Assembly: GCF_900188275.1 (NCBI RefSeq)
Contig: NZ_FZNY01000012.1
Coordinates: 1-64,000, forward strand
Direction of reading: 5' to 3'
Length of the DNA stretch: 64,000 nt
Origin: Dokdonia pacifica
GTDB lineage: Bacteria > Bacteroidota > Bacteroidia > Flavobacteriales > Flavobacteriaceae
Translations under genes and position numbers: made by a program
The notes under the pieces: generated by a model
What the model was told of the DNA's origin: nothing
Database searches by the model: none
What the model saw: only the letters and a program-made list of their open reading frames with translations
In this document: positions 52,315-63,449 of the stretch, piece after piece
Layout: each line of letters starts with the position of its first letter
Numbering within the stretch: the first letter of the stretch is position 1

Positions 52315-53592
52315 TTATGAGTTATATTTTTTAAATAACATACAGCAATTTACATCTCCAAATCCGAAACTTGCTTTTGCCGCTATATGTATTTCTTTAT
52401 GAATGGTTTTATTGGGTATTTTACTTTTTGCTATTATAGCTGTAATGTCTGGATGAATATCATTACAATTTATGTTTCCAAAAACCATTCCATGTTGTAA
52501 TTCTAAAATAGTAGCCACAGTTTCTATACTTCCAGCCGCAGCTAAACAATGACCTGTCATACTTTTAAGAGAGTTAATATATGGGAAGTTTTCACCAGAT
52601 CTTCCTAATGCGTCACTCCAATTTTTTATTTCGGTAGGACACATTCCTGTTGCAGTAAGATGTCCATTGATAGTATCTATATCCTGAGGATGTGTAGCCG
52701 TGTTTTTCATCGCATCTTTAATACAATGTTGTACGGCAATACTATTAGGAGCTGTCATACTCCCAGATTGTCGTTGTCCACCACTATTAACAGCACCACC
52801 TAATACTTCAGCATAAATAGTCGCATTTCTTGAAAGAGCGCTTTCTAAACTTTCCAATACTAAAGCTCCTGCCCCACTTCCTGGTACAAAACCACCAGCA
52901 TCACTTTGCATCGGTCTACTTCCTTGCTCTGGTTGATCATTATGTTTTTTATTAAGTACACGCATGGCATCAAATCCGCCCCATATATAGGGTCCTGCAT
53001 CATTACAACCACCTACAAGCATACGTTTTGCATATCCATTTGCAATTCGATCATATCCCATCAAGATACTTTCTGTTCCCGTAGTACATGCGCTAGAATT
53101 GGTGGTTACTTGATTCCCACACCCCAAATAACCTCCTAAGTAAGCACTTATACCACTTGCCATCGTTTGGATCACTGTAGTGCTTCCTAAACGTTTTACT
53201 TTTCCTTCATCTGTAAGATAAATAGCTTTCCTAAACTTTTCAACGCCAAGGAGAGAGGTTCCAAAAATGATCCCGCTATCATAATCTACAGTATCCTTAT
53301 CCGTAATCGCAAGTCCAGCGTCTTTCCATGCATCTACACCAGCAATCATACCATATGTAATTCCTGTAGCCTCTAAATCCCTTAGTTGTAAGGGGGTAAA
53401 ATATTCTTTTAATAAGTCATCTGGGATTTCTGGTTGTCCAGCAATTTGACACCCAAAATTTAAATCGGCAAGTTGTTGTTGAAATCGTATTCCAGAAATT
53501 CCATTTTTAATAGCTTCGGTAAACGCAGGAATTCCTACTCCATTTGGTGCACATACTCCCAATCCAGTAATCACTACTCTTTGTTTACTCAT
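52315..53592 (-). CDS. Beta-ketoacyl-ACP synthase (FabF-like)
   Basis: 425-residue condensing enzyme. The Cys-His-His triad is visible: Cys169 in TNSSACTTGTES, His311 in TINGHLTATGMCPTE and His348 in KSMTGHCLAAAGS. The C-terminal GFGDVNCCMLF is normal for KAS II. The spacing matches an elongating ketosynthase, not a chain-length factor. It overlaps the dehydratase gene by 4 bp and precedes the ACP by 10 nt. I infer that it extends a fatty-acyl chain on the dedicated ACP to make the starter for the type III PKS. Confidence 0.9.
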   Translation of the reverse strand: MSKQRVVITGLGVCAPNGVGIPAFTEAIKNGISGIRFQQQLADLNFGCQIAGQPEIPDDLLKEYFTPLQLRDLEATGITYGMIAGVDAWKDAGLAITDKDTVDYDSGIIFGTSLLGVEKFRKAIYLTDEGKVKRLGSTTVIQTMASGISAYLGGYLGCGNQVTTNSSACTTGTESILMGYDRIANGYAKRMLVGGCNDAGPYIWGGFDAMRVLNKKHNDQPEQGSRPMQSDAGGFVPGSGAGALVLESLESALSRNATIYAEVLGGAVNSGGQRQSGSMTAPNSIAVQHCIKDAMKNTATHPQDIDTINGHLTATGMCPTEIKNWSDALGRSGENFPYINSLKSMTGHCLAAAGSIETVATILELQHGMVFGNINCNDIHPDITAIIAKSKIPNKTIHKEIHIAAKASFGFGDVNCCMLFKKYNS

Positions 53593-54023
53593 ACTTTAAA
53601 AACTCCTGCTAACTTGCCTTGACAGACCAACTCATTAGCTTGATTATATAATTTTACATGGCACTTTAATTTATTAAACCGAAAGTAATCTACTTCTGAA
53701 ATAACAGTTACTTTTTCATTAGGGTATACCGGTTTTAAAAAAGAAACATCGGCATTTGTAAAAGCCACCTGCATGGTGTGCAAGGATGTTTTATCTCTTA
53801 GTAGGTATATGCCTAAACAGACGAGTCCTATTTGCGCCATGCATTCCGTTAAGATAACACCAGGGGTAACTGGAAAATCTTTAAAATGACCTTTATAAAA
53901 ATAAGATTCTTCTTTAAATATGTACGTTCCTTTAATATATTGTTCAGTAACCTCTTCTATCTCGTTTACAAATAAGAAAGGCTCCGTATAGGGCAATAAC
54001 GCTATGATCTCTTCCGTTTTCAT
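53589..54023 (-). CDS. FabZ-like 3-hydroxyacyl-ACP dehydratase
   Basis: 144-residue hot-dog protein. The active-site sequence is YKGHFKDFPVTPGVILTECM, with His46 and Glu60 matching the FabZ His/Glu pair. Length is normal. It overlaps both neighbours by 4 bp (ATGA-type junctions), so translation is coupled. It would remove water from 3-hydroxyacyl-ACP in the operon's acyl-building cycle. No ketoreductase other than the neighbouring SDR is in the cluster. Confidence 0.88.
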   Translation of the reverse strand: MKTEEIIALLPYTEPFLFVNEIEEVTEQYIKGTYIFKEESYFYKGHFKDFPVTPGVILTECMAQIGLVCLGIYLLRDKTSLHTMQVAFTNADVSFLKPVYPNEKVTVISEVDYFRFNKLKCHVKLYNQANELVCQGKLAGVFKV

Positions 54024-54814
54024 CGTATATGATCTCCTCCATCTACAGGCACAACAGCACCATTAATCCAAGACGCTTCATCTCTACACAACAAGTATAC
54101 TGCATTTGCTACATCTTCTGGAAGTGTAAGTCTACCGTATGGGTTTCGCTCTATTGATTTTTCTTTCATTACATCACTTCCTGGTATTAAACGCAAACTT
54201 TCTGTATCTGTCACTCCCGCTTGAATACAATTTGCTTTGATATGCACTGGTGCAAATTCTAAGGCAATACTCCGTGTAATACTCTCTAATGCTGCTTTAG
54301 CGACTGCCACAGCGCCGTATTGCTTCCAAGCTTTACGACTTCCTTCACTAGTAAATGCAATCACTCTCGCATCTGGTGAAAATAAGTTCGCTTTCGCGAA
54401 AGCGGATACCCAATCATATAAACTGATGGCCATCGCGTCTACCGTACGCATAAAATCGTCATTACTCAACACCGTTCCTTCCTCACTATATAAAGGTTTT
54501 AGGTTTCCTCTTGCCACACTATGAATAAGTGATTTTACTTGGGATGTTCCTACTATTTCTAAAAGCTCTGAAACTACCTGTGTTCGTTTTTCAGCATTTA
54601 AAGCATCGGTATTAAATGCAATTACTTGTACACCAGATAATTTCATCTCCTTCATTGCTTCTTCAAAAACTGCTAAAACACTTCTCCTACTACGATGTAC
54701 GATACAAATATGCATTCCTTCCTTTGCAAGCTTTTGTGCGGTAGCTAGTCCTAAACCGCTACTGCCCCCTAAAATGACTGCCCATTTACCAATATAATCC
54801 TGTTGTGTGGTCAT
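54020..54814 (-). CDS. SDR-family reductase, FabL-like enoyl-ACP reductase
   Basis: 264 residues. The Rossmann nucleotide motif is VILGGSSGLGLATAQKLA (residues 14-31). The catalytic pair is Tyr166 and Lys173 in YGAVAVAKAALESITR, spaced Tyr-x6-Lys as in FabI/FabL enoyl reductases rather than Tyr-x3-Lys of ordinary SDRs. The C-terminal INGAVVPVDGG is standard. I therefore prefer an enoyl-ACP reductase over a ketoreductase. A palindrome copy at 54389-54404 is read as AFAKA at about residues 138-142, next to the active-site helix. It overlaps the dehydratase by 4 bp and lies 7 bp after the type III PKS. Confidence 0.82.
   Translation of the reverse strand: MTTQQDYIGKWAVILGGSSGLGLATAQKLAKEGMHICIVHRSRRSVLAVFEEAMKEMKLSGVQVIAFNTDALNAEKRTQVVSELLEIVGTSQVKSLIHSVARGNLKPLYSEEGTVLSNDDFMRTVDAMAISLYDWVSAFAKANLFSPDARVIAFTSEGSRKAWKQYGAVAVAKAALESITRSIALEFAPVHIKANCIQAGVTDTESLRLIPGSDVMKEKSIERNPYGRLTLPEDVANAVYLLCRDEASWINGAVVPVDGGDHIR
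54389..54404. repeat. CTTTCGCGAAAG palindrome inside the SDR gene
   Basis: Perfect CGCTTTCGCGAAAGCG, translated as AFAKA inside the folded enzyme. Confidence 0.9.
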
Positions 54815-54821
54815 GTATTAT

Positions 54822-55874
54822 TTACCATTTTAATAAAACCCGTTGTGCTGAAAATCCAGGTCCAAAGCTTAACATAATCCCGATATCATTTTTAGGCAAC
54901 TTCTTATCTAAAAATCGTTCTAAAACATATAATACCGTAGCACTACTCATATTTCCATATAAACGTAGGACTTCCTTGGTATCCTCTATATTTTTACCCA
55001 ATTTACCAAAAAGATCTTCTACGGTCTCCACAATTTTTCGTCCACCAGGATGAAAAATCAAATGCGCTACATCTTGAATATTTAGTTTATTTTTTTCTAA
55101 AAAAGGATGTATAATATCTGGGAATTGTTGGGCTATTGTTTCTGGCACTTGTTGATCAAGTATCATTTGCAATCCTGTATTTACAAGCTTAAACCCCATC
55201 ATGTGTTGTGCATCATAAAAATGATACATTTCTGTATCTACTATTTCTGGCCCCGTATCTTCTTCTTTTGAAGATAATAAAACGCAGGCGGCTCCATCTC
55301 CAAAAATGGCTGCACTCACTACATTTACCATAGAAAAATCTGTATGTTGAAATGTAGCTGTAGGGCTTTCTATAGCAATTACAGCGGCTCTCTTTCCTGG
55401 ATTTGCCTTCAAAAACTCATTGGCATATACCACACCAGAAACACCTGCTGCACAGCCCATTTCTGTAACTGGCAAGCGTACAATATCTTGTCTTAATTGT
55501 AAGCTATTAATCAAATAAGCATCTAAAGATGGAATCATAATACCTGTACAACTTACTGTAATAATATAATCTAATGATTGTGACTCCCAATTTGCCTTTG
55601 TAAGTGCTTTTTTAAGTACTTGTTCCCCTAGTTTTACAACTTCGCGTGTGTAAATATCATTTTTTTCTTCAAAACTGGTTGCTGTAAATACTTCTTCTGG
55701 AGACATAATACTATACCGTTTATCTACCGCTGCATTTCCAAAAATCTTTTTTACTTTTCGTTTAAAACGATCGTCCTGTTCGTGTAACCAAACATCAAGA
55801 AAAGGAATAATTTCATCGGTAGTTCTGTGGTATTGCGGAAGTTGTTTTGCTACAGTCGTAATTTTTACATTCAT
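54822..55874 (-). CDS. Type III polyketide synthase (chalcone synthase-like)
   Basis: 350 residues, the usual length. The catalytic triad is Cys141 in VTEMGCAAGVSG, His275 in HLIFHPGGRKIVE and Asn308 in LRLYGNMSSATVLYVL. The C-terminal GFGPG-like loop appears as LSFGPGFSAQ. Such enzymes condense malonyl units onto an acyl starter to give alkylpyrones, alkylresorcinols or similar aromatics. The genes downstream (ACP, KS, DH, reductase) would supply a long acyl starter and the genes upstream (methyltransferase, flavoprotein) would tailor the product. The final compound cannot be told from sequence. Confidence 0.93.
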   Translation of the reverse strand: MNVKITTVAKQLPQYHRTTDEIIPFLDVWLHEQDDRFKRKVKKIFGNAAVDKRYSIMSPEEVFTATSFEEKNDIYTREVVKLGEQVLKKALTKANWESQSLDYIITVSCTGIMIPSLDAYLINSLQLRQDIVRLPVTEMGCAAGVSGVVYANEFLKANPGKRAAVIAIESPTATFQHTDFSMVNVVSAAIFGDGAACVLLSSKEEDTGPEIVDTEMYHFYDAQHMMGFKLVNTGLQMILDQQVPETIAQQFPDIIHPFLEKNKLNIQDVAHLIFHPGGRKIVETVEDLFGKLGKNIEDTKEVLRLYGNMSSATVLYVLERFLDKKLPKNDIGIMLSFGPGFSAQRVLLKW

Positions 55875-56581
55875 AGGGTCTTAATTAACCACAGGTATCG
55901 AAATGCCCACTTCCAAGTAATCTCAGAATGTTTTAATTTCAATTGTTGTGCAACTTTTTTTAGTTCATGTTTTTTAAATCCGCTTGCTATAGATACAAGT
56001 CCATCATTTTTAGCTACATGACTCTTGATAAAAATACGACTAAATAATCTAAATAACTGATAAGCGATTTTACTTCTTTGTAAGTCGTTTATAACAACAG
56101 CAACTTGCGCTAATGTTACAAATTGTTTCATAAAGGAGAGAATCTCCTGATCTTTAAAGTGATGTAATGTTAATGTGCATATGATAATATCACAATGAAA
56201 AGACGTATGATTTATTTTTAATATATCTTTTTTCAAAAAGCGTATATTTTTATAGGAATGAGACATTTCTTCACCCATTACGATGCTTTGCTCGCTTATC
56301 TCTATACCTATAAGTTCTATCTCTAAATTTTCAGATGTAAAATAATCTGCAATAAGACGTAACATCTCTCCATCTCCACATCCTACATCTACGATAGTCC
56401 ATTGCTTTTTTAATGGGTTTTCGTTAAAAATATTACTTAATGCTTTTAGTGTAATACGATTACCCCCTAGCATTCTATTGGTTTTAGAAATATCATAAAG
56501 CGCTTCTTTTAAATCTAATAGAGAAATATCTGGATCATCCATAAGTTCTCTTTCGGTAGCTCTATAGGTCAAGTTTCTCAT
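55871..56581 (-). CDS. SAM-dependent methyltransferase of the type III PKS operon
   Basis: 236 residues with a class I SAM-binding fold: TIVDVGCGDGEMLRLIADYF (motif I), acidic motif II in IELIGIEIS, and IIICTLTLHHFKDQ. The length and HHFKDQ segment resemble small-molecule C- or O-methyltransferases associated with type III PKS genes. It overlaps the genes on both sides by 4 bp, so it is translationally coupled. It probably methylates the aromatic product or a pyrone. Confidence 0.88.
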   Translation of the reverse strand: MRNLTYRATERELMDDPDISLLDLKEALYDISKTNRMLGGNRITLKALSNIFNENPLKKQWTIVDVGCGDGEMLRLIADYFTSENLEIELIGIEISEQSIVMGEEMSHSYKNIRFLKKDILKINHTSFHCDIIICTLTLHHFKDQEILSFMKQFVTLAQVAVVINDLQRSKIAYQLFRLFSRIFIKSHVAKNDGLVSIASGFKKHELKKVAQQLKLKHSEITWKWAFRYLWLIKTL

Positions 56582-57699
56582 AAAGGTGTACCGTGTGTAG
56601 ATTTAATAATTGTTTTAAGAAGGTATGGTGAAGTACTTACGATAGATACTCCCATACGCGTTATTTTTTTGTTTTGCAGTGCATTTTGTATCCAACGTCC
56701 TACTTTAAGTCTTTTTTGAAATGTATGACTCCACTGTTTGGTGTATTGTTGTTCTAATTCTAATCGGCTATATGTATTTACTTTCTGTGTTGTGAGTAAA
56801 CTAGAAATGATCTTTGCACTATGGATTGCCATTGCCATCCCATTACCACATAATGGATGTATTAAACCAGCACTATCACCTACCATAAATATATGGTTAA
56901 GAACGGGTTCTTTTTTGTCAAATGATATTTGACTTATAGCTACTGGTGCTTGAAATGTAATTTGACTATTCTCAAAAAAGGATTTAAGGGCTTTGTTTTT
57001 GTAGAGTACTTTTTGTTGATATTCCTCTATGTTTTTATATGCTTTGAATGACTTATAATCAGCCAGATAACATGCGTTTACATTGCCTGTCTCGACTTTT
57101 GATAATCCACAATATCCACCATTAAAATTGTGAAGTGCTACTAAATCATCAGGGAAATCTGATTTGTAATGTGCCTTTACCCCTAGCCATGCAGATTTTT
57201 TCTTTATAAACTTTCGCGAAAGCGTACTATCCAAATTACTCCGTTTTCCGTGGGCTCCAATTACATAATTTGCTATATATTCTTGATGGTCATTTGTAAT
57301 TACTTGAAAATGATTCTCTTTAAAAAGTATATGAGCAACTGTTGCTTGTATTACCTCAACACCTAAAGCTATAGCTCTTTTTACCATTATCTCATCTAAG
57401 GCATACCTACTGATACCAAATCCTCCTAAAGGAAGTGTAATATCTAATGTATTGCCAGATAGGCTTGAAAATTGAAATTTTTCAATCTTTTTTGCTTGAT
57501 GGTTATAGGGGTGAACACCCAGAGATTCTAAATAAGAAAAGACTTCATTAGATACATATTCTCCACAAACTTTATGTTTTGGGTAGGTGTTTTTTTCTAT
57601 GAGAACAACGTTAATGTTTTCTTTTGCGAGATGAATAGCACTTGTGAGTCCTGCAAGACCACCTCCAACAATTAAAACCTTGATTTGTTTTTGATTCAT
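56578..57699 (-). CDS. FAD-dependent oxidoreductase (geranylgeranyl-reductase-like)
   Basis: 373 residues, first gene of the type III PKS operon. The FAD-binding motif is VLIVGGGLAGLTSAIHLA (residues 8-25) and the second motif MVGDSAGLIHPLCGNGMAMA lies near 275-294. KVCGEYVSNEVFSYLESLG is typical of the group that includes geranylgeranyl reductases and aromatic hydroxylases. A hydroxylase or ring oxidase role on the polyketide is most likely. A palindrome copy at 57211-57224 is read as TLSRKFIKK. The start is the ATG at 57699, after a 314-bp non-coding region that probably holds the promoter. Confidence 0.85.
   Translation of the reverse strand: MNQKQIKVLIVGGGLAGLTSAIHLAKENINVVLIEKNTYPKHKVCGEYVSNEVFSYLESLGVHPYNHQAKKIEKFQFSSLSGNTLDITLPLGGFGISRYALDEIMVKRAIALGVEVIQATVAHILFKENHFQVITNDHQEYIANYVIGAHGKRSNLDSTLSRKFIKKKSAWLGVKAHYKSDFPDDLVALHNFNGGYCGLSKVETGNVNACYLADYKSFKAYKNIEEYQQKVLYKNKALKSFFENSQITFQAPVAISQISFDKKEPVLNHIFMVGDSAGLIHPLCGNGMAMAIHSAKIISSLLTTQKVNTYSRLELEQQYTKQWSHTFQKRLKVGRWIQNALQNKKITRMGVSIVSTSPYLLKTIIKSTHGTPL
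57211..57224. repeat. CTTTCGCGAAAG palindrome, shorter copy in the flavoprotein gene
   Basis: CTTTCGCGAAAGCG preceded by AAA, so one arm is truncated. Translated LSRK. Confidence 0.8.
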
Positions 57700-58013: not shown

Positions 58014-59630
58014 ATGCAGGATCAATTATTTAATATTCTTGACAAATTATTAGTTACTAATAAGATTAGACTGAACAAAGAAGAATTAAAACTTCAATTA
58101 TTAAGTCACCCTTCTTATCCAAGTTTACACGCATTAACTGGAGTCTTAAAGCACTTTGGGGTTCCTAACCTTGCTTTACAAGTACCTACAGATCAAGATA
58201 CATTAGATCAATTGCCTCCAACTTTTATAGCGAATGTGAATGGTGATAAGGGAATGCACTTAGCATTTATTGAAAAAAAAGGGAGTTCTATTAATGTCTA
58301 TACAGATCACAAACAGATAAAAACGATATCTAATGATGCATTTTTTGAGGTATGGGATGGTATTATTGTTGCTGTAGAGAAAGATGAAACTATTCGGGAA
58401 GAAAAAGGATCTAATGCTTCTAAAATATGGCAGTGGGCATTTATAATTATAGCATTAGGTGTTGGAATTGCACTTTTAAATAAAGCGTTAGTATTTGAAG
58501 GCATTCACTACTTTTTAAGCGCTATTGGATTAATTTTAGGAGTACTTATTGTAGGACATTCGTTAGGATTAGAATCTAGTAGTACAGCCAGTATTTGTAA
58601 TCTCTCTGAAAAAACAAGTTGTGATGCTGTTTTAAATTCTAAAGGAGCAAAAATAGGAGGTTTATTAACGCTTAGTGATGCTAGTATTATAGCATTTGCA
58701 AGTTATACACTCGTATATTGTTTTTCATTACTAGGAGGTATTTCTATTAATGGGGTTATCGTTGCATTGTCATTTTTAGCAATCCCATTTGTTTTATACT
58801 CTATCTACTATCAAGGTAGTGTTTTGAAGAAATGGTGTCCATTATGCTTAGGTATCGCTTCTGTTCTTATACTTCAAGCAGTAGCTGCGCTTGTAACAGG
58901 AAATAGTACTGCTTTCTTGTCTATAGGTTTAGAAGAAATTGTGCTTTATGCACTAAGTATTGTTATTGTTGTGAGTTTATGGTTTATGATAAAACCATTA
59001 TTACATAAAAAGGTAGCATTAGATAAATTAAAAATAGAAAGTAATAAATTCAAGAGAAACTTCTCTATTTTCAATACGTTATTAAAAGAGAACGATAGCA
59101 TTACAAATGATCTTGAACTTCCGAAAGAGATTGTACTAGGTAATAGAGATGCTTCATTAGAAGTTGTACTAGTAACAAGTCCTTTATGCTATTACTGTAA
59201 ACAAGCACATACAGATATTGAAAACATATTAAAACAGACGAGTAATGATATCAAAGTTATTGTTCGATTTAATGTAAATGTAGAAGATACTGAAGGCGAA
59301 GGGTTCCAAGTAACTTCTCGTTTAATACATGCTTATAATACCGAAGGTGAACTTGCATGTATTAAAATGATGCATGAAGTATATGAAAGTGATGTTGATC
59401 TAAAACAATGGTTGAAAAAACAGCAAGCTTTAGATACTGATTATAGTGATGTTCTCAGTGCTCAAAAAGAGTGGTGTACACAAAACAATATTAACTTCAC
59501 TCCGGCTCTTTATATACAAGGAAATCAATTCCCAAGAGAGTACGATAGAAATGATTTACCATTATTTATAGAAGATCTCATTGAGCAACAACAAAGTCAA
59601 GAAATAGATAGTCCAATGATGACTTCCTAA
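58014..59630 (+). CDS. C39-like (Cys-less) - VKOR - thioredoxin fusion membrane protein
   Basis: 538 residues in three parts. Residues 1-125 resemble a C39 peptidase fold (LLSHPSYPSLHALTGVLKHF; GMHLAFIEKKGSSINVYTDH keeps a His), but there is no Cys at all before residue 195, so it cannot be a cysteine peptidase. Residues about 140-335 are a VKOR domain: membrane helices, loop cysteines Cys195 and Cys203 (SICNLSEKTSCDAV) and the active site WCPLC with Cys275/Cys278. Residues about 340-530 are a thioredoxin-fold domain with CYYC at 392-395. VKOR-Trx fusions oxidise thiols in exported proteins using quinone. The four cysteine-rich peptide genes directly downstream are the obvious substrates. The Cys-less C39 part may bind their leaders. 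Confidence 0.88.
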   Translation: MQDQLFNILDKLLVTNKIRLNKEELKLQLLSHPSYPSLHALTGVLKHFGVPNLALQVPTDQDTLDQLPPTFIANVNGDKGMHLAFIEKKGSSINVYTDHKQIKTISNDAFFEVWDGIIVAVEKDETIREEKGSNASKIWQWAFIIIALGVGIALLNKALVFEGIHYFLSAIGLILGVLIVGHSLGLESSSTASICNLSEKTSCDAVLNSKGAKIGGLLTLSDASIIAFASYTLVYCFSLLGGISINGVIVALSFLAIPFVLYSIYYQGSVLKKWCPLCLGIASVLILQAVAALVTGNSTAFLSIGLEEIVLYALSIVIVVSLWFMIKPLLHKKVALDKLKIESNKFKRNFSIFNTLLKENDSITNDLELPKEIVLGNRDASLEVVLVTSPLCYYCKQAHTDIENILKQTSNDIKVIVRFNVNVEDTEGEGFQVTSRLIHAYNTEGELACIKMMHEVYESDVDLKQWLKKQQALDTDYSDVLSAQKEWCTQNNINFTPALYIQGNQFPREYDRNDLPLFIEDLIEQQQSQEIDSPMMTS

Positions 59631-59725
59631 ACGTATATTATATTAAAGACATACGATTAAATGTCTATAAATGTTTAATCACTTATTAATTTTAAAACTT
59701 AATTACTTGATATTGAATAAAATAT

Positions 59726-59750
59726 ATTTTGTTAATCCCTATAATACAAA
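59726..59750 (+). promoter_or_regulatory. Promoter-like block, copy 1
   Basis: TTTTGTTAATCCCTATAATA plus CAAA, repeated exactly at 60018-60042. In both places the pseudoknot-type element begins about 5 bases later, so this is the likely promoter of the leader transcript. It does not match TAnnTTTG, so the assignment rests on duplication and position. Confidence 0.45.
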
Positions 59751-59755
59751 CGCAT

Positions 59756-59790
59756 AGACACATTCCTGAGTGTCTTTAAAATGTTCAGGA
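59756..59790 (+). promoter_or_regulatory. H-type pseudoknot leader element, copy 0 (before the relic gene)
   Basis: Stem 1 is AGACAC (59756-59761) with GTGTCT (59770-59775). The loop sequence TCCTGA (59764-59769) can pair with TCAGGA (59785-59790), and an A-rich strand lies between. The element ends 25-26 nt before the GTG of the relic. Confidence 0.65.
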
Positions 59791-59815
59791 TTATTAACTT
59801 AATATTTTTATTGTT

Positions 59816-59926
59816 GTGAAGAAGTTAAAAAACCATCATAGGGTACACTCTTTTAGTACTCTTAAAAAGAAAGAAAGAACACTTTTCAGACTCATCCTGA
59901 AGGAGAAACAGATGTATCATTTATAG
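59816..59926 (+). pseudogene. Decayed copy of the cysteine-rich peptide gene
   Basis: A GTG-started 36-codon frame reads VKKLKNHHRVHSF then unrelated Lys-rich sequence. The first six codons match the leader MKKLKN of the four intact genes. The upstream 90 bp (promoter-like block and pseudoknot-type element) matches too, but the rest of the leader, the VNGG end and all cysteines are missing. I infer a relic of a fifth precursor. A short leader peptide with its own role is less likely. Confidence 0.5.
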
Positions 59927-60017
59927 CTGCTCTAATAGTACGCTATATATTCTTTTTTCAAATACAACCTTATATATAATACATAAGAATGCAAATCTTG
60001 CATTCTCGCATAGACTA

Positions 60018-60042
60018 TTTTGTTAATCCCTATAATACAAAG
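60018..60042 (+). promoter_or_regulatory. Promoter-like block, copy 2
   Basis: Exact repeat of 59726-59750, placed just before pseudoknot-type element copy 1. Confidence 0.45.
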
Positions 60043-60046
60043 GAAT

Positions 60047-60079
60047 AGACAGTTATCTGAATGTCTATAAATACTCAGA
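60047..60079 (+). promoter_or_regulatory. H-type pseudoknot leader element, copy 1
   Basis: Stem 1 AGACA (60047-60051) / TGTCT (60062-60066). Stem 2 TCTGA (60056-60060) / TCAGA (60075-60079), with an A-T pair replacing the C-G pair of the other copies, a compensatory change. It ends 25 nt before the ATG at 60105. Confidence 0.65.
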
Positions 60080-60104
60080 ATTATTAACACAATATTCTAT
60101 TATC

Positions 60105-60308
60105 ATGAAAAAATTAAAAAATCTTAAAGGAGCTGTAGCTTTAGATAAAGCACAGCAGAAAGAAGTAAATGGAGGTGCAAAACTATGCAATGGTAACTGT
60201 GCTGGAAGACCTAATGGAGCTCGTTGCTATTACCAAGGACACTGTGGTTGTCCAGGAGAATGCTCTTCAAGTTCTCACGGCTTTGAAGGCGGATGTATTC
60301 CTTATTAA
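60105..60308 (+). CDS. Cysteine-rich peptide precursor 1 (GG-type leader)
   Basis: 67 residues. The leader MKKLKNLKGAVALDKAQQKE is followed by VNGG (residues 21-24), the double-glycine form typical of Bacteroidota ribosomal peptide precursors. The core carries seven cysteines spaced C-x3-C-x8-C-x5-C-x-C-x3-C-x10-C and ends IPY. The last spacing is longer here (SSSSHGFEGG) than in the other three copies. Core motifs GRPNGAR and GHCGCPGEC are shared. It is followed by a weak inverted repeat (60317-60356). I infer an exported disulfide-rich peptide; bacteriocin or signal function is not shown. Confidence 0.85.
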   Translation: MKKLKNLKGAVALDKAQQKEVNGGAKLCNGNCAGRPNGARCYYQGHCGCPGECSSSSHGFEGGCIPY

Positions 60309-60426
60309 AAGGTTTAGGGTAATGAATTAACAATCTATGACGGTTTAATTTATTACCCACTAGAAATCACTTAATCAATCATATTTTTTGATCTATTACT
60401 TCAATATACATTCATCTTGAAGATAC

Positions 60427-60465
60427 AGACATTGCGATTCCAGATGTCTTAAAATAATAGGGAAT
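60427..60465 (+). promoter_or_regulatory. H-type pseudoknot leader element, copy 2 (most diverged)
   Basis: Stem 1 AGACAT (60427-60432) / ATGTCT (60444-60449). Stem 2 ATTCC (60437-60441) / GGAAT (60461-60465). The stem 2 sequence differs completely from the other copies yet still pairs, and the element again ends 25 nt before its ATG. Confidence 0.62.
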
Positions 60466-60490
60466 AGTAACAAACAAAAAAATTAGAATT

Positions 60491-60676
60491 ATGAAAAGTT
60501 TAAAAAATCTAAAAGGAGTTCAAGAATTAAACAAAGCGCAACAAAAAGAAGTAAATGGAGCTAGAATAGGTTGCTCAAGTAATTGTAGCGGAAGACCACA
60601 AGGATCACGATGTTATGCCGGTGGTCATTGTTTATGCCCTGGCGTATGTTTAGGCGGAGGATGTCTTCCATTATAG
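60491..60676 (+). CDS. Cysteine-rich peptide precursor 2
   Basis: 61 residues. The leader MKSLKNLKGVQELNKAQQKE is followed by VNGAR, so the second glycine is replaced by Ala. This departs from the strict GG rule and could affect cleavage. The core keeps all seven cysteines (C-x3-C-x8-C-x5-C-x-C-x3-C-x4-C) with GRPQGSR and GGHCLCPGVC, and ends LPL in place of the aromatic end of the others. It has the most diverged leader and leader RNA of the set. A strong terminator follows (60688-60729), so it is likely its own transcript. Confidence 0.85.
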   Translation: MKSLKNLKGVQELNKAQQKEVNGARIGCSSNCSGRPQGSRCYAGGHCLCPGVCLGGGCLPL

Positions 60677-60687
60677 TATAAGATCTA

Positions 60688-60729
60688 AAAACATTCAGAA
60701 CTAAGTAATATAGTTCTGAATGTTTTTTT
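60688..60729 (+). terminator. Terminator of peptide gene 2
   Basis: AAACATTCAGAACTA / TAGTTCTGAATGTTT stem with a 7-base loop and a run of T. Confidence 0.9.
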
Positions 60730-60787
60730 CATGGCTATATAAGACTTTCAAACCATTTATATACAACCATCAAAAAACTATCGATAT

Positions 60788-60821
60788 AGACATGACCCTG
60801 AGTGTCTTTAAACTATTCAGG
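60788..60821 (+). promoter_or_regulatory. H-type pseudoknot leader element, copy 3
   Basis: Stem 1 AGACA(T) (60788-60793) / (G)TGTCT (60802-60807). Stem 2 CCTGA (60797-60801) / TCAGG (60817-60821). It ends 25 nt before the ATG at 60847. Confidence 0.65.
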
Positions 60822-60846
60822 ATTAACTAACATAAATTTTTATCTC

Positions 60847-61035
60847 ATGAAAAAATTAATGAATTTAAAAGGAGCTACGTCATTAGACAAAGCGCAACAA
60901 AAAGAAGTAAATGGAGGACTTCGCAAACTATGTAATGGTAATTGCTCTGGAAGACCAAATGGATCTCGTTGTTATATGGGTGGTCATTGTTCTTGTCCTG
61001 GAGATTGTATAAGTGGAGAATGTATCCCTTGGTAA
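60847..61035 (+). CDS. Cysteine-rich peptide precursor 3
   Basis: 62 residues from the ATG at 60847. A GTG at 60802 is in frame but lies inside the RNA leader element, and the ATG aligns with the other copies. The leader MKKLMNLKGATSLDKAQQKE is followed by VNGGLRK. The seven-cysteine core has GRPNGSR and GGHCSCPGDC and ends IPW. Spacing is C-x3-C-x8-C-x5-C-x-C-x3-C-x4-C. It is followed by a nested hairpin terminator. Confidence 0.87.
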   Translation: MKKLMNLKGATSLDKAQQKEVNGGLRKLCNGNCSGRPNGSRCYMGGHCSCPGDCISGECIPW

Positions 61036-61050
61036 GATAATGCAATCTAT

Positions 61051-61090
61051 AACATTCAAACTTAGGTAACGCTACCAAAGTTTGAATGTT
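61051..61090 (+). terminator. Terminator-like hairpin after peptide gene 3
   Basis: AACATTCAAACTT ... AAGTTTGAATGTT with an inner GGTA / TACC stem. The T tail is short. Confidence 0.75.
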
Positions 61091-61144
61091 AGTTTTCCTT
61101 ATAAGATACTTAAAGCAACATTCTTTTAAAATCTTATAAAAGAT

Positions 61145-61177
61145 AGACATGAACCTGAGTGTCTTTAATTATTCAGG
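61145..61177 (+). promoter_or_regulatory. H-type pseudoknot leader element, copy 4
   Basis: Stem 1 AGACA (61145-61149) / TGTCT (61160-61164). Stem 2 CCTGA (61154-61158) / TCAGG (61173-61177). It ends 24 nt before the ATG at 61202. Confidence 0.65.
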
Positions 61178-61201
61178 AATAACTAACTTAATTTTTATCT
61201 C

Positions 61202-61390
61202 ATGAAAAAACTAATGAATTTAAAAGGAGCAACGTCATTAAACAAAGCTCAACAAAAAGAAGTAAATGGAGGTGCAAAACTTTGTAATGGTAATTGTGCA
61301 GGTAGACCTAATGGAGCTCGTTGCTATTACCAAGGACATTGTTCTTGTCCTGGAGAATGTTCTAGTTCTTGGGGTTGTATACCTTACTAA
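61202..61390 (+). CDS. Cysteine-rich peptide precursor 4
   Basis: 62 residues. The leader MKKLMNLKGATSLNKAQQKE plus VNGG is nearly identical to gene 3, while the core (AKLCNGNCAGRPNGARCYY) is nearly identical to gene 1. It looks like a recombinant of those two. Seven cysteines, last spacing x5, ends IPY. It ends 11 nt before a hairpin shared with the convergent E1 gene. Confidence 0.87.
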   Translation: MKKLMNLKGATSLNKAQQKEVNGGAKLCNGNCAGRPNGARCYYQGHCSCPGECSSSWGCIPY

Positions 61391-61400
61391 GAATTAAATA

Positions 61401-61443
61401 TACTATTCAAATTTGGCATGTATGATGTCAAGTTTGAATAGTA
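61401..61443. terminator. Bidirectional terminator between peptide gene 4 and the E1 gene
   Basis: TACTATTCAAATTTG / AAGTTTGAATAGTA stem with T-rich flanks on both strands. The E1 stop codon lies at its edge. Confidence 0.8.
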
Positions 61444-61445
61444 TT

Positions 61446-63449
61446 TTAATACGCTATAAGTTCCTTTAGACTATCTTCTAAACGCTTTCTAGAAAGGTAT
61501 TGTTCTTCTAATTGCCCAGCAAAAGGTACTGGTGTATCTAAACTTGTCACACGACGTATAGGAGCATCTAAAAATTCAAAACAATCTTCAGAAATCATCG
61601 CAGAAATATCAGACATCACACTTCCAAAACCTGAATCTTCAGTAAGTAATAAAACTTTACCTGTTTTTTTAATCGATGTAAAAATTGTCTCTGTATCTAG
61701 TGGTTGTAAAGTTCTTAAATCAATGAGATCAGCAGAAACAGTTATTTCTTCCAGTGTTTCTAAAGCCCAATGCACTCCAGCTCCATACGTAACAATCGTA
61801 ACATCATTTCCTTCTTTTAATGTAACAGCTTTTCCTATAGGTAATGTATAATACTCTGTAGGTACATCTTGACGAATGCTTCTATACAAAGCCTTATGCT
61901 CAAAAAATAACACAGGGTTAGGATCTTCTATAGCAGTTGCTAATAATCCTTTTGCATCATATGGGAATGCTGGATATACCACTTTAAGTCCAGGGGTATG
62001 TGTAAACCAAGCCTCATTGGTTTGCGAATGATAAGGTCCTGCCCCCACACCTGCTCCACAAGGCATACGCACTACCACATCGGCTGCTTGTGACCAACGA
62101 TAATGTGATTTTGCTAAGTAATTTACAATAGGGTTAAAACCAGAAGTTGCAAAATCTGCAAATTGCATTTCCATAATGGCTTTCTTCCCATTTATAGCAA
62201 GTCCCATAGCTGCTTCTACAATAGCACTCTCACAAATAGGTGTATTACGTACTCGTTCTTTTCCAAATGCTTCTACAAAACCATCTGTAATTTTAAATAC
62301 CCCACCATACTCAGCAATATCTTGCCCCATAATGACCGTATCATCATTACGTTCCATAGATTGTTTAAGACCAAGAGAAATAGCATCTATTAAACGTAGT
62401 TCTTCTGTTGCTGTCCCAGCTTTTATTTCTGAATATGTAAAAGGCGCATATACATCCGTAAGTTCTGTTTCTAAATTTGGAATTATTGCCTCTTCACTAT
62501 ATGCTATATCTAGATTTTTAGTGATTTCTTCTTTTATTTGAGAAGCCATCTCATCGTGTATTGCCTCGGTAAGCACTTCTAATTCTAGCAAATACTGTTT
62601 GTAATTTTCTATTGGATCTTTTTTAGCCCAAGTCTCCATCAGTTCTTTAGGAACATACTTTGTTCCACTAGCTTCCTCATGACCTCGCATTCTGAAGGTT
62701 TTAAACTCCAATAATACGGGTCTTGGATTCTTACGAATATCTTCTGCAAGTTTTTGCACTGTGGTATACACCTCTAAAATATTATTTCCATCTATAATAT
62801 GGCTTTCCATACCGTATCCTAAAGCTCTATCTGCTAAGTTCTCACAATTATATTGTTCGCTAGTAGGTGTAGAAAGCCCATAGCCGTTATTCTCTATACA
62901 AAACAATACAGGTAATTGCCAAACAGAAGCGACGTTTAATGCTTCGTGAAAATCTCCTTCACTTGTACCTCCTTCTCCAGTAAAGACAGCAGTAACAGCT
63001 TTTTCATTACGCAATTTATGCGCGAGGGCTATCCCATCTGCTACTCCTAATTGAGGTCCTAAATGAGATATCATACCTACAATATTATATTCCTGTGTTC
63101 CGAAATGAAAACTACGGTCACGCCCTTTTGTAAAACCACTTGCCTTCCCTTGCCATTGCGCAAATAAGCGATACAAAGGAATCTCTCTTGTTGTAAAAAC
63201 TCCAAGATTACGATGCATCGGAAGGATGTATTCTTCTGGTCGCATTGCTGTGGTAACGCCCACAGAAATAGCTTCTTGACCAATACCCGCAAACCATTTA
63301 GAAATTTTACCTTGTCTCAATAAAATAAGCATCTTCTCCTCTATTAATCGAGGAGTAAGCATGGCTTTATATAATTGTAAAAGCATTTCATCCGTAAGCG
63401 ATGTACGGTCGTAATCAAAATGAACTTTAGCTGTAGTTTTTGTTGCCAT
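61446..63449 (-). CDS. 2-oxoacid dehydrogenase E1, alpha-beta fusion (branched-chain or pyruvate type)
   Basis: 667 residues. The alpha half (about 1-330) contains the thiamine diphosphate site GEGGTSEGDFHEALNVASVW and FCIENNGYGLSTPT. The beta half (about 340-667) contains MGQDIAEYGGVFKITDG, ICESAIVEAAMGLAINGKKA and MPCGAGVGAGPYHSQTNEAW. Bacteroidota often carry E1 alpha and beta of the branched-chain 2-oxoacid complex as one such fused chain. The lipoyl E2 and E3 genes are not in the window. The start MATKTTAKVHFDYDR is 91 bp from the palindrome at 63540. Confidence 0.92.
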   Translation of the reverse strand: MATKTTAKVHFDYDRTSLTDEMLLQLYKAMLTPRLIEEKMLILLRQGKISKWFAGIGQEAISVGVTTAMRPEEYILPMHRNLGVFTTREIPLYRLFAQWQGKASGFTKGRDRSFHFGTQEYNIVGMISHLGPQLGVADGIALAHKLRNEKAVTAVFTGEGGTSEGDFHEALNVASVWQLPVLFCIENNGYGLSTPTSEQYNCENLADRALGYGMESHIIDGNNILEVYTTVQKLAEDIRKNPRPVLLEFKTFRMRGHEEASGTKYVPKELMETWAKKDPIENYKQYLLELEVLTEAIHDEMASQIKEEITKNLDIAYSEEAIIPNLETELTDVYAPFTYSEIKAGTATEELRLIDAISLGLKQSMERNDDTVIMGQDIAEYGGVFKITDGFVEAFGKERVRNTPICESAIVEAAMGLAINGKKAIMEMQFADFATSGFNPIVNYLAKSHYRWSQAADVVVRMPCGAGVGAGPYHSQTNEAWFTHTPGLKVVYPAFPYDAKGLLATAIEDPNPVLFFEHKALYRSIRQDVPTEYYTLPIGKAVTLKEGNDVTIVTYGAGVHWALETLEEITVSADLIDLRTLQPLDTETIFTSIKKTGKVLLLTEDSGFGSVMSDISAMISEDCFEFLDAPIRRVTSLDTPVPFAGQLEEQYLSRKRLEDSLKELIAY

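Follow-up and report, generated by a model that had tools for sequence, protein, structure and literature searches.

A C39-like/VKOR/thioredoxin fusion, its cysteine-rich leader peptides and an upstream RNA pseudoknot in Dokdonia pacifica and other Bacteroidota

What would a membrane oxidase do with a peptidase fold that has lost its catalytic residues, and why do genes for small cysteine-rich peptides lie beside it? The question is raised by a locus of Dokdonia pacifica on contig NZ_FZNY01000012.1, of which a stretch of 64,000 nucleotides (the window) was analysed. A single gene here joins a C39-like domain to a VKOR domain and a DsbA-type thioredoxin domain, and four genes for short precursors with double-glycine (GG) type leaders follow it. 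The answer favoured, at moderate confidence, is that the locus encodes a family of secreted disulfide peptides that would be oxidised in the cytoplasm by the fusion, acting as a leader-guided and inverted enzyme, and would then leave through a peptidase-containing ATP-binding cassette (ABC) transporter (PCAT), in which a C39 peptidase is fused to an ABC exporter. The original prediction had proposed leader-guided oxidative folding of disulfide-rich peptides, and this gains support from the pairing of enzyme and peptides at 95 of 101 distinct fusions, from the dead C39 fold and from the invariant redox cysteines.

The fusion protein and its peptides

58014..59630, + strand: C39-like/VKOR/DsbA-type thioredoxin fusion, 538 aa (open reading frame (ORF), Pfam, alignments, AlphaFold, fold matches)
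58014..58388, + strand: C39-like domain, residues 1-125, without the PCAT catalytic Cys/His/Asp and with a conserved SHPxYPSL motif (Pfam, alignment, fold)
58407..58478, + strand: extra transmembrane helix TM0, residues 132-155, before the VKOR core (AlphaFold helix, mean hydropathy of 76 sequences)
58491..59009, + strand: VKOR core, helices TM1-TM5, residues ~160-332, with Cys195/203 and Cys275/278
59121..59570, + strand: thioredoxin/DsbA-type domain, residues 370-519, CYYC at 392-395 and TP motif at 496-497
60105..60308, + strand: precursor 1, GG leader, seven-cysteine core, 67 aa
60491..60676, + strand: precursor 2, GA leader, seven-cysteine core, 61 aa
60850..61035, + strand: precursor 3, GG leader, seven-cysteine core, 61 aa
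61202..61390, + strand: precursor 4, GG leader, seven-cysteine core, 62 aa

Judged against curated cut-offs, Pfam places Peptidase_C39 (residues 18-125, 26.2 bits against a cut-off of 22), VKOR (167-292, 53.1 against 27.5) and Thioredoxin_4 (370-519, 39.9 against 23.2) in the fusion, so that the three-part make-up read earlier from the sequence, with its cysteine motifs, is correct. The VKOR family is matched at E 0.01 in 76 of 76 aligned fusions, and Cys195/Cys203, Cys275/Cys278 (WCPLC) and Cys392/Cys395 (CYYC) are invariant in alignments of 25 and of 76 sequences, as is the thioredoxin TP motif in the larger one. Structural matches of the thioredoxin domain are mainly to oxidoreductases of the DsbA/ScsC/BdbD type. 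In the whole genome (5.52 Mb) the three VKOR matches are the window fusion and two further fusions, and a genome search found no DsbB. The domains, the six invariant cysteines and the topology discussed below make it very likely that the fusion oxidises the peptide cores.

Structure comparison gives the C39-like domain the fold of a PCAT peptidase, with leader-bound 6mpz and HlyB among the matches, and a profile comparison with C39 gives a match spanning 79 columns (probability 90%). The fold is thus that of C39, whereas the catalytic Cys-His-Asp set is missing: the columns of residues 1-30 hold no cysteine across 76 fusions, and PCAT His89 and Asp105 (numbering of the protein at locus L061) align opposite M81 and T97. 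The domain is catalytically dead, and what it conserves is the fold and the SHPxYPSL motif; nor is the protein a PCAT, having VKOR and thioredoxin domains instead of an ABC exporter. The earlier statement that no cysteine precedes residue 195 holds for this protein but not for its family, where 30 of 76 members have at least one in columns 1-130. At residue 70 (window numbering), distant in sequence from the lost catalytic site, the C39-like domains of 21 of the 76 relatives carry a cysteine. It seems quite likely that a GG-type leader docks on this domain.

Does such an enzyme generally keep such company? The own genome holds its two further fusions on contigs C9 and C19, each adjoining its own GG-leader cysteine peptides, and a fusion match at E <=0.001 occurs in 17 of 99 related genomes, the own one included (the matches in G016 and G082 are weak). 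A scan of named genomes added 80 loci from Dokdonia, Tenacibaculum, Aquimarina, Psychroserpens, Labilibaculum, Saprospiraceae and others. Altogether 110 loci were examined, with 109 fusion ORFs in 105 of them, 101 distinct. The co-occurrence search found at least one Cys-rich GG-type ORF within 2 kb of 95 of the 101, and because the window arrangement recurs so widely it is not due to chance. These ORFs number 240 in 381.9 kb near a fusion, whereas the 850.7 kb lying more than 4 kb away hold 116, counts that contain some false members since the detector (a GG-like motif, then at least four cysteines) is broad. Most near ORFs (214 of 240) lie downstream on the strand of the fusion, and the nearest same-strand one is at most 200 nt away in 83 of 94 cases. 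Of the six fusions without a near peptide, L099 and L077 adjoin contig ends, another two come from a single split gene (L060), one has its peptide at 2.5 kb (L054) and one a GG peptide with just two cysteines (L117). The split gene, two ORFs of 281 and 220 aa with no peptide near, is apparently decaying. Of 75 fusion ORFs in L063-L142, 34 have TTG or GTG as their first start codon, many of them exactly where others have ATG.

The 214 downstream cores have four (90), five (9), six (76), seven (22) or eight (17) cysteines and are very diverse behind a single leader type, fusion and GG-leader peptides being kept together in Flavobacteriaceae, Bacteroidales and other Bacteroidota. That enzyme and peptides act together is highly probable.

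Orientation of the oxidase and the proposed pathway

On which side of the membrane would the enzyme work? The AlphaFold model has six long helices (132-155, 160-183, 220-241, 246-271, 276-294 and 306-344), and since the match to the Synechococcus VKOR begins only at residue 160, helix 132-155 is extra. With this extra first helix the C39-like domain, both VKOR cysteine pairs and the thioredoxin domain would therefore share one side. In the fusions that could be scored (81 of 97) the loops of the active-site side hold on average 15.3 Lys+Arg against 1.1 on the other, the direction being the same in 81 of 81. In the C39-less VKORs of the phylum (20 of 21 scored, taken from among the 30 loci listed) the means are 2.8 on the active-site side and 10.4 on the other, reversed in 20 of 20. 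Per residue the values are 0.166 (active side) and 0.053 for the fusions, 0.045 and 0.210 for the C39-less proteins. When counted in the alignment with the helix borders of the model, 76 of 76 fusions agree (14.6 against 0.7), and 75 of 76 do so per residue. Because the positive charge lies there, the positive-inside rule and the model together make the cytoplasm the likely location of the active side.

The alternative that survives best keeps VKOR in its normal orientation, with the C39-like domain, the VKOR cysteines and the thioredoxin domain in the periplasm, folding occurring after export and the C39-like domain holding the core or a still attached leader. Most characterised VKORs and DsbA-type proteins do work outside the cytoplasm, and the fold matches of the thioredoxin domain are mainly of that kind; the charge pattern, however, is the opposite of that in all the scored C39-less VKORs, and since PCATs remove leaders on the cytoplasmic side, none would be left for a leader-binding domain in the periplasm. 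We consider this arrangement unlikely, if worth keeping in mind.

In the favoured reading of cytoplasmic oxidation, the GG-type leader of each precursor would first dock on the dead C39-like domain. The DsbA-type thioredoxin domain would then oxidise the core cysteines and itself be re-oxidised by VKOR, with electrons passing to a membrane quinone; since the extra first helix would turn VKOR round, both leader binding and oxidation would be cytoplasmic and precede export. Finally a catalytic PCAT would cut after the GG and export the core with an HlyD partner, in trans in the case of the window locus. An idea that fares less well is that the C39-like domain binds no leader, being a structural remnant or a contact surface for the PCAT, and that the oxidase takes whatever thiol peptide is near it as substrate. 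In its favour, what is conserved is the fold and the SHPxYPSL motif; yet fusions with this domain have stayed together with GG-leader peptides in Flavobacteriaceae, Bacteroidales and other Bacteroidota alike, and the fold matches include a leader-bound structure. It is accordingly rated as improbable.

Roughly half of the related loci show the gene linkage expected for the last step: 50 of 98 have a PCAT (700 aa or longer) no more than 4 kb from the fusion, in 49 of them downstream on the same strand. In 43 of these 50 an HlyD homologue is also present within 8 kb, and contig ends or masking explain part of the other seven. Against the PCAT on contig C17 of the own genome (L061:7599-9791) these linked PCATs reach 929-1,269 bits. 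The C17 locus (G000:C17:72000-91000) also holds its own HlyD, a LanB-type dehydratase gene and a GG-leader cysteine peptide. A second PCAT (L062, G000:C19:557000-575000) has as neighbours the genes for a small membrane protein and for a peptide of 58 aa that contains an EGG motif followed by four cysteines. C39 matches in the own genome are these two PCATs and the window fusion, the other two fusions falling under the search threshold, and on the contig of the window this search gave the fusion alone. The original prediction had placed cleavage and export elsewhere, and indeed there is no local C39 exporter, the PCATs being on C17 and C19; cleavage and export in trans are therefore plausible, and the C17 PCAT is a plausible exporter. 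The locus does not resemble a class I lanthipeptide cluster, in which a LanB-type dehydratase accompanies the precursors: homologues of the C17 LanB-like protein occur in 3 of 98 loci, the window precursors stay under the NCBIfam lanthipeptide cut-offs, and the other genes of the window were not scanned for LanB.

Several points weigh against the cytoplasmic, leader-guided pathway. Disulfides, leader binding, export and topology are all predicted, and the orientation depends on the positive-inside rule and on a model of predicted template modelling score (pTM) 0.62. The low-charge loops, which average some 4 to 10 residues, are short; the stretch preceding TM0 is net negative, and one of the 76 sequences fails the per-residue comparison. 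Oxidation in the cytoplasm requires disulfides to form in a normally reducing compartment. Seven is an odd number, so at least one cysteine of each window core stays free or links two molecules. A PCAT is missing from the window locus and, within 4 kb, from 48 of 98 loci, some of which are cut by a contig end.

An RNA pseudoknot ahead of the peptide genes

59739..59804, + strand: pseudoknot copy "pre0", no intact peptide (model R1); a similar copy is at L063:10729-10793
59816..59926, + strand: degenerate leader-like ORF (VKKLKN...) behind pre0, no GG, no cysteine core
60018..60094, + strand: pseudoknot element 1
60420..60467, + strand: pseudoknot element 2, divergent, in the training alignment, missed by R1
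60770..60836, + strand: pseudoknot element 3
61124..61192, + strand: pseudoknot element 4
60686..60730, + strand: long hairpin and T tract behind precursor 2 (-19.7 kcal/mol, z -7.8)
61044..61092, + strand: long hairpin behind precursor 3 (-20.8 kcal/mol, z -9.4)
61399..61446, + strand: long hairpin behind precursor 4 (-24.3 kcal/mol, z -9.0)

Upstream of each window peptide gene is an H-type pseudoknot of two crossing helices, S1 and S2, and a peptide cassette would consist of this element, the ORF and a strong 3' hairpin (for three of the four here, that of precursor 1 being weaker in folding, z -3.8). By a blunt detector 143 of 230 upstream regions contain such a pseudoknot, where shuffles lead one to expect 17.8. 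Covariation was assessed in 79 regions, one per locus by position: 89 of the 101 fusions gave a region, 75 were kept and four from the window added. The 14 dropped by eye had no element, another element type or a misplaced start or were near-duplicates, and six regions were shifted by 20 nt, hence the set is not a blind sample. In it 97.4% of S1 cells, 93.8% of S2 cells and 78.8% of those of the preceding hairpin are paired, and all 12 pairs of S1 and S2 show two-sided changes. Over all 17 pairs, 90.7% of cells are paired as against 77.0% in shuffles and 35-50% in slid structures, and two-sided changes number 177 cells against 56.1.

The covariance model R1 comprises the hairpin and S1 and does not treat S2 as paired. 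Run on the whole own genome it gives 22 places. Behind 21 of them, 44-57 nt from the element centre, comes a small ORF whose leader is of this type, and the 22nd is the degenerate pre0; 18 of the 21 leaders end in GG and the others in GA (L178), AG (L186) and AS (L184). By script at least five of the six S2 pairs are present in 33 of 35 matches outside the window (one, L176, was in the training set and a few were read in the wrong orientation), a level which mispaired controls reach in 37.7%, a lenient control since the arms share a TGA/TCA core. In the 80 loci of named genomes 198 of 212 matches, which include most training elements, precede a GG-type small ORF, as against 189 of 2,000 random positions; nine of the other 14 are by eye contig ends, broken frames, masked sequence or leader variants. 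The C17 cluster peptide is also preceded by the pseudoknot (L193). A weak fifth match in the window (59614-59694, E 0.043), besides the four good ones, is left uninterpreted.

How closely do element and fusion travel together? Where more than 40 genomes were searched stricter filters were used, so these genome counts are lower bounds. Among 296 Bacteroidota genomes R1 matches occur in seven, all among the 33 with a fusion (hypergeometric 1.2e-7, a support overstated because relatedness is ignored), and in 18 congeneric genomes the same seven carry both (the weak G016 match being left out). In the 99 relatives 13 genomes have the element, nine of them with a strong fusion match, out of 15 strong-fusion genomes. 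To be set against the oxidative reading are the four of 13 element-bearing genomes without a fusion match, three of which have a GG-type ORF behind the element (for L253 the script found none), and the element-borne peptides of L182 and L189, with two and no core cysteines. Apparently, therefore, not every peptide needs the oxidase, and the element marks GG-leader peptides in general. Near L242, L249 and L253, in genomes without a fusion match, the element lies beside genes resembling, by sequence, those of carboxypeptidase-regulatory-like repeat proteins. Loci L045, L046, L047, L048, L050, L052 and L056 have other leaders (MKISLKD..., MKNLTK... and others) and a different upstream element, with motifs like ACCGAAAAGCCT...AGAGTAGGT, which may also form a pseudoknot.

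S2 mostly ends 24-30 nt before the start codon, with one element per gene, which suggests an action on translation or mRNA stability, and a probable role of the pseudoknot is to adjust how strongly the cell expresses its GG-leader peptides. Could the element instead act as DNA, as a site for recombination or cassette shuffling, or be simply part of a promoter or terminator? It does recur ahead of every duplicated cassette, and the same string of 22 bases, TTGTTAATCCCTATAATACAAA, which includes a TATAAT hexamer, lies at 59729-59750 and 60020-60041, just 5' of two of the pseudoknots; but the crossing helices covary across the 79 regions as described, every one of their 12 pairs changing on both sides, and the distance to the start codon is narrow in most cases, and so this alternative is held very unlikely. 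The string may be a promoter, in which case the pseudoknot would form the very 5' end of the mRNA. Promoter patterns in the region are not enriched (15, shuffle mean 22.5), nor are terminator patterns (one, on the opposite strand, shuffle mean 1.0). No Rfam family reaches its gathering score in eight loci, the window stretch giving seven sub-threshold matches. With metabolite riboswitches that contain an H-type pseudoknot, the comparison extends to the architecture.

The precursors themselves share a leader of the type MKKLxNLKG...KAQQKEVNGG, for which the ATG at 60850 is a suitable start of precursor 3 and the GTG at 60802 is not. Four GG leaders with seven-cysteine cores had been described, and four precursors with seven cysteines each are there, the second leader ending in GA. 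Precursors 2-4 are 64-90% identical to precursor 1 and keep all seven cysteines. The spacing of the fourth core, C-x3-C-x8-C-x5-C-x-C-x3-C-x5-C, is common to 20 cores of Dokdonia and other records, whose invariant cysteines are partly a matter of choice as they were selected by the seven-cysteine pattern. The core has no fold match in the PDB at E 10 and no credible sequence match there (best E 0.16); its predicted structure is middling (predicted local distance difference test 74.0, pTM 0.42), and no conclusion is drawn from it. None of the four precursors matches a Pfam or NCBIfam family over cut-off, and searches against plasmid DNA and phage proteins gave no match. That the peptides are cytosolic metallothionein-like metal binders, with the fusion an unrelated neighbour, is scarcely credible: the window family is Cys-rich with an odd cysteine number, but 183 of the 214 downstream cores have four, six or eight cysteines, and the leaders, the PCAT/HlyD linkage and the diversity of cores behind one leader type all speak otherwise. 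Elsewhere in the window, at 53589-57699 on the minus strand, are seemingly unrelated genes that look pigment- or polyketide-like by sequence (dehydratase-like, short-chain dehydrogenase/reductase, type III polyketide synthase-like, methyltransferase and FAD-dependent oxidoreductase).

Known relatives and meaning

The Synechococcus VKOR (4nv2/4nv6) has the same VKOR core with two cysteine pairs and a thioredoxin domain behind it, to which the fusion adds TM0, the N-terminal C39-like domain and a thioredoxin part of ScsC/DsbA type; the charge reversal is relative to the C39-less VKORs of the phylum, a count that the Synechococcus protein lies outside. The topology of the archaeal VKOR of Aeropyrum pernix reportedly promotes disulfide formation in two compartments, and to our knowledge that protein has neither a C39-like domain nor dedicated peptide substrates. 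The C39-like domains of HlyB-type exporters have lost the catalytic cysteine and bind substrate; they and the PCAT peptidase domains share the C39 fold with the domain described here, which in contrast sits on an oxidase and not on an ABC transporter. Dedicated thiol-disulfide enzymes are encoded beside a GG-leader peptide for pediocin (PedC) and sublancin (BdbA/BdbB), as at the present locus; these are extracytoplasmic, and we know of no leader-recognition domain in them.

The closest described system is that of the bacteroidetocins, whose four-gene regions encode a PCAT and a thiol oxidoreductase together with a five-transmembrane-helix protein and a GG-leader cysteine peptide (Coyne et al. 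2019, PMC6671954). Deleting the peptide, transmembrane protein or oxidoreductase genes lowered activity there, and disulfides were inferred from gel mobility (PMC6671954). Common to both, as far as that account goes, are a GG-leader cysteine peptide of Bacteroidota beside a thiol oxidoreductase and, in some of the loci related to ours, a C39-ABC exporter; such an adjacent PCAT is absent from the window locus itself and present in the 50 of 98 given above. By their description each A/B region of the bacteroidetocins has one four-cysteine bacteriocin, a five-helix protein and a separately encoded oxidoreductase, whereas here a single C39-like/VKOR/thioredoxin fusion accompanies several diverse cores with a pseudoknot per gene. 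The word VKOR is absent from the main texts of PMC6671954, PMC8546649, PMC10352776 and PMC8939145, and no such upstream pseudoknot element appears in the passages of PMC2864571 consulted. Open-licence literature yielded nothing on VKOR in a C39, bacteriocin or leader-peptide context, nor on double-glycine, C39 and Cys-rich bacteriocins in Bacteroidetes. The original remark that no described family of this exact make-up was known stands for the open-licence literature and for the enzyme architecture but not for the logic, which bacteroidetocins share; what is new is the putative leader-steered inverted oxidase and the RNA pseudoknot.

Whether all this amounts to a Bacteroidota-wide class, in which a leader-steered inverted oxidase would make cytoplasmic disulfides before PCAT export and a new pseudoknot would control a GG-leader regulon, we judge to be evenly balanced. 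Outside the cell the peptides may serve antagonism or signalling. Leader-guided modification is a hallmark of ribosomal peptide pathways, and a leader-recognition domain on an electron-transfer oxidase would extend that guidance to disulfides. The pseudoknot offers a sequence handle for GG-leader peptides too short for ordinary annotation and raises the question of what it senses, and the conserved leader with its very diverse cysteine cores points to a wealth of mini-proteins still to be charted. Disulfide formation by an inverted VKOR would take place in the bacterial cytoplasm, which would be useful for producing disulfide-rich mini-proteins in E. coli.

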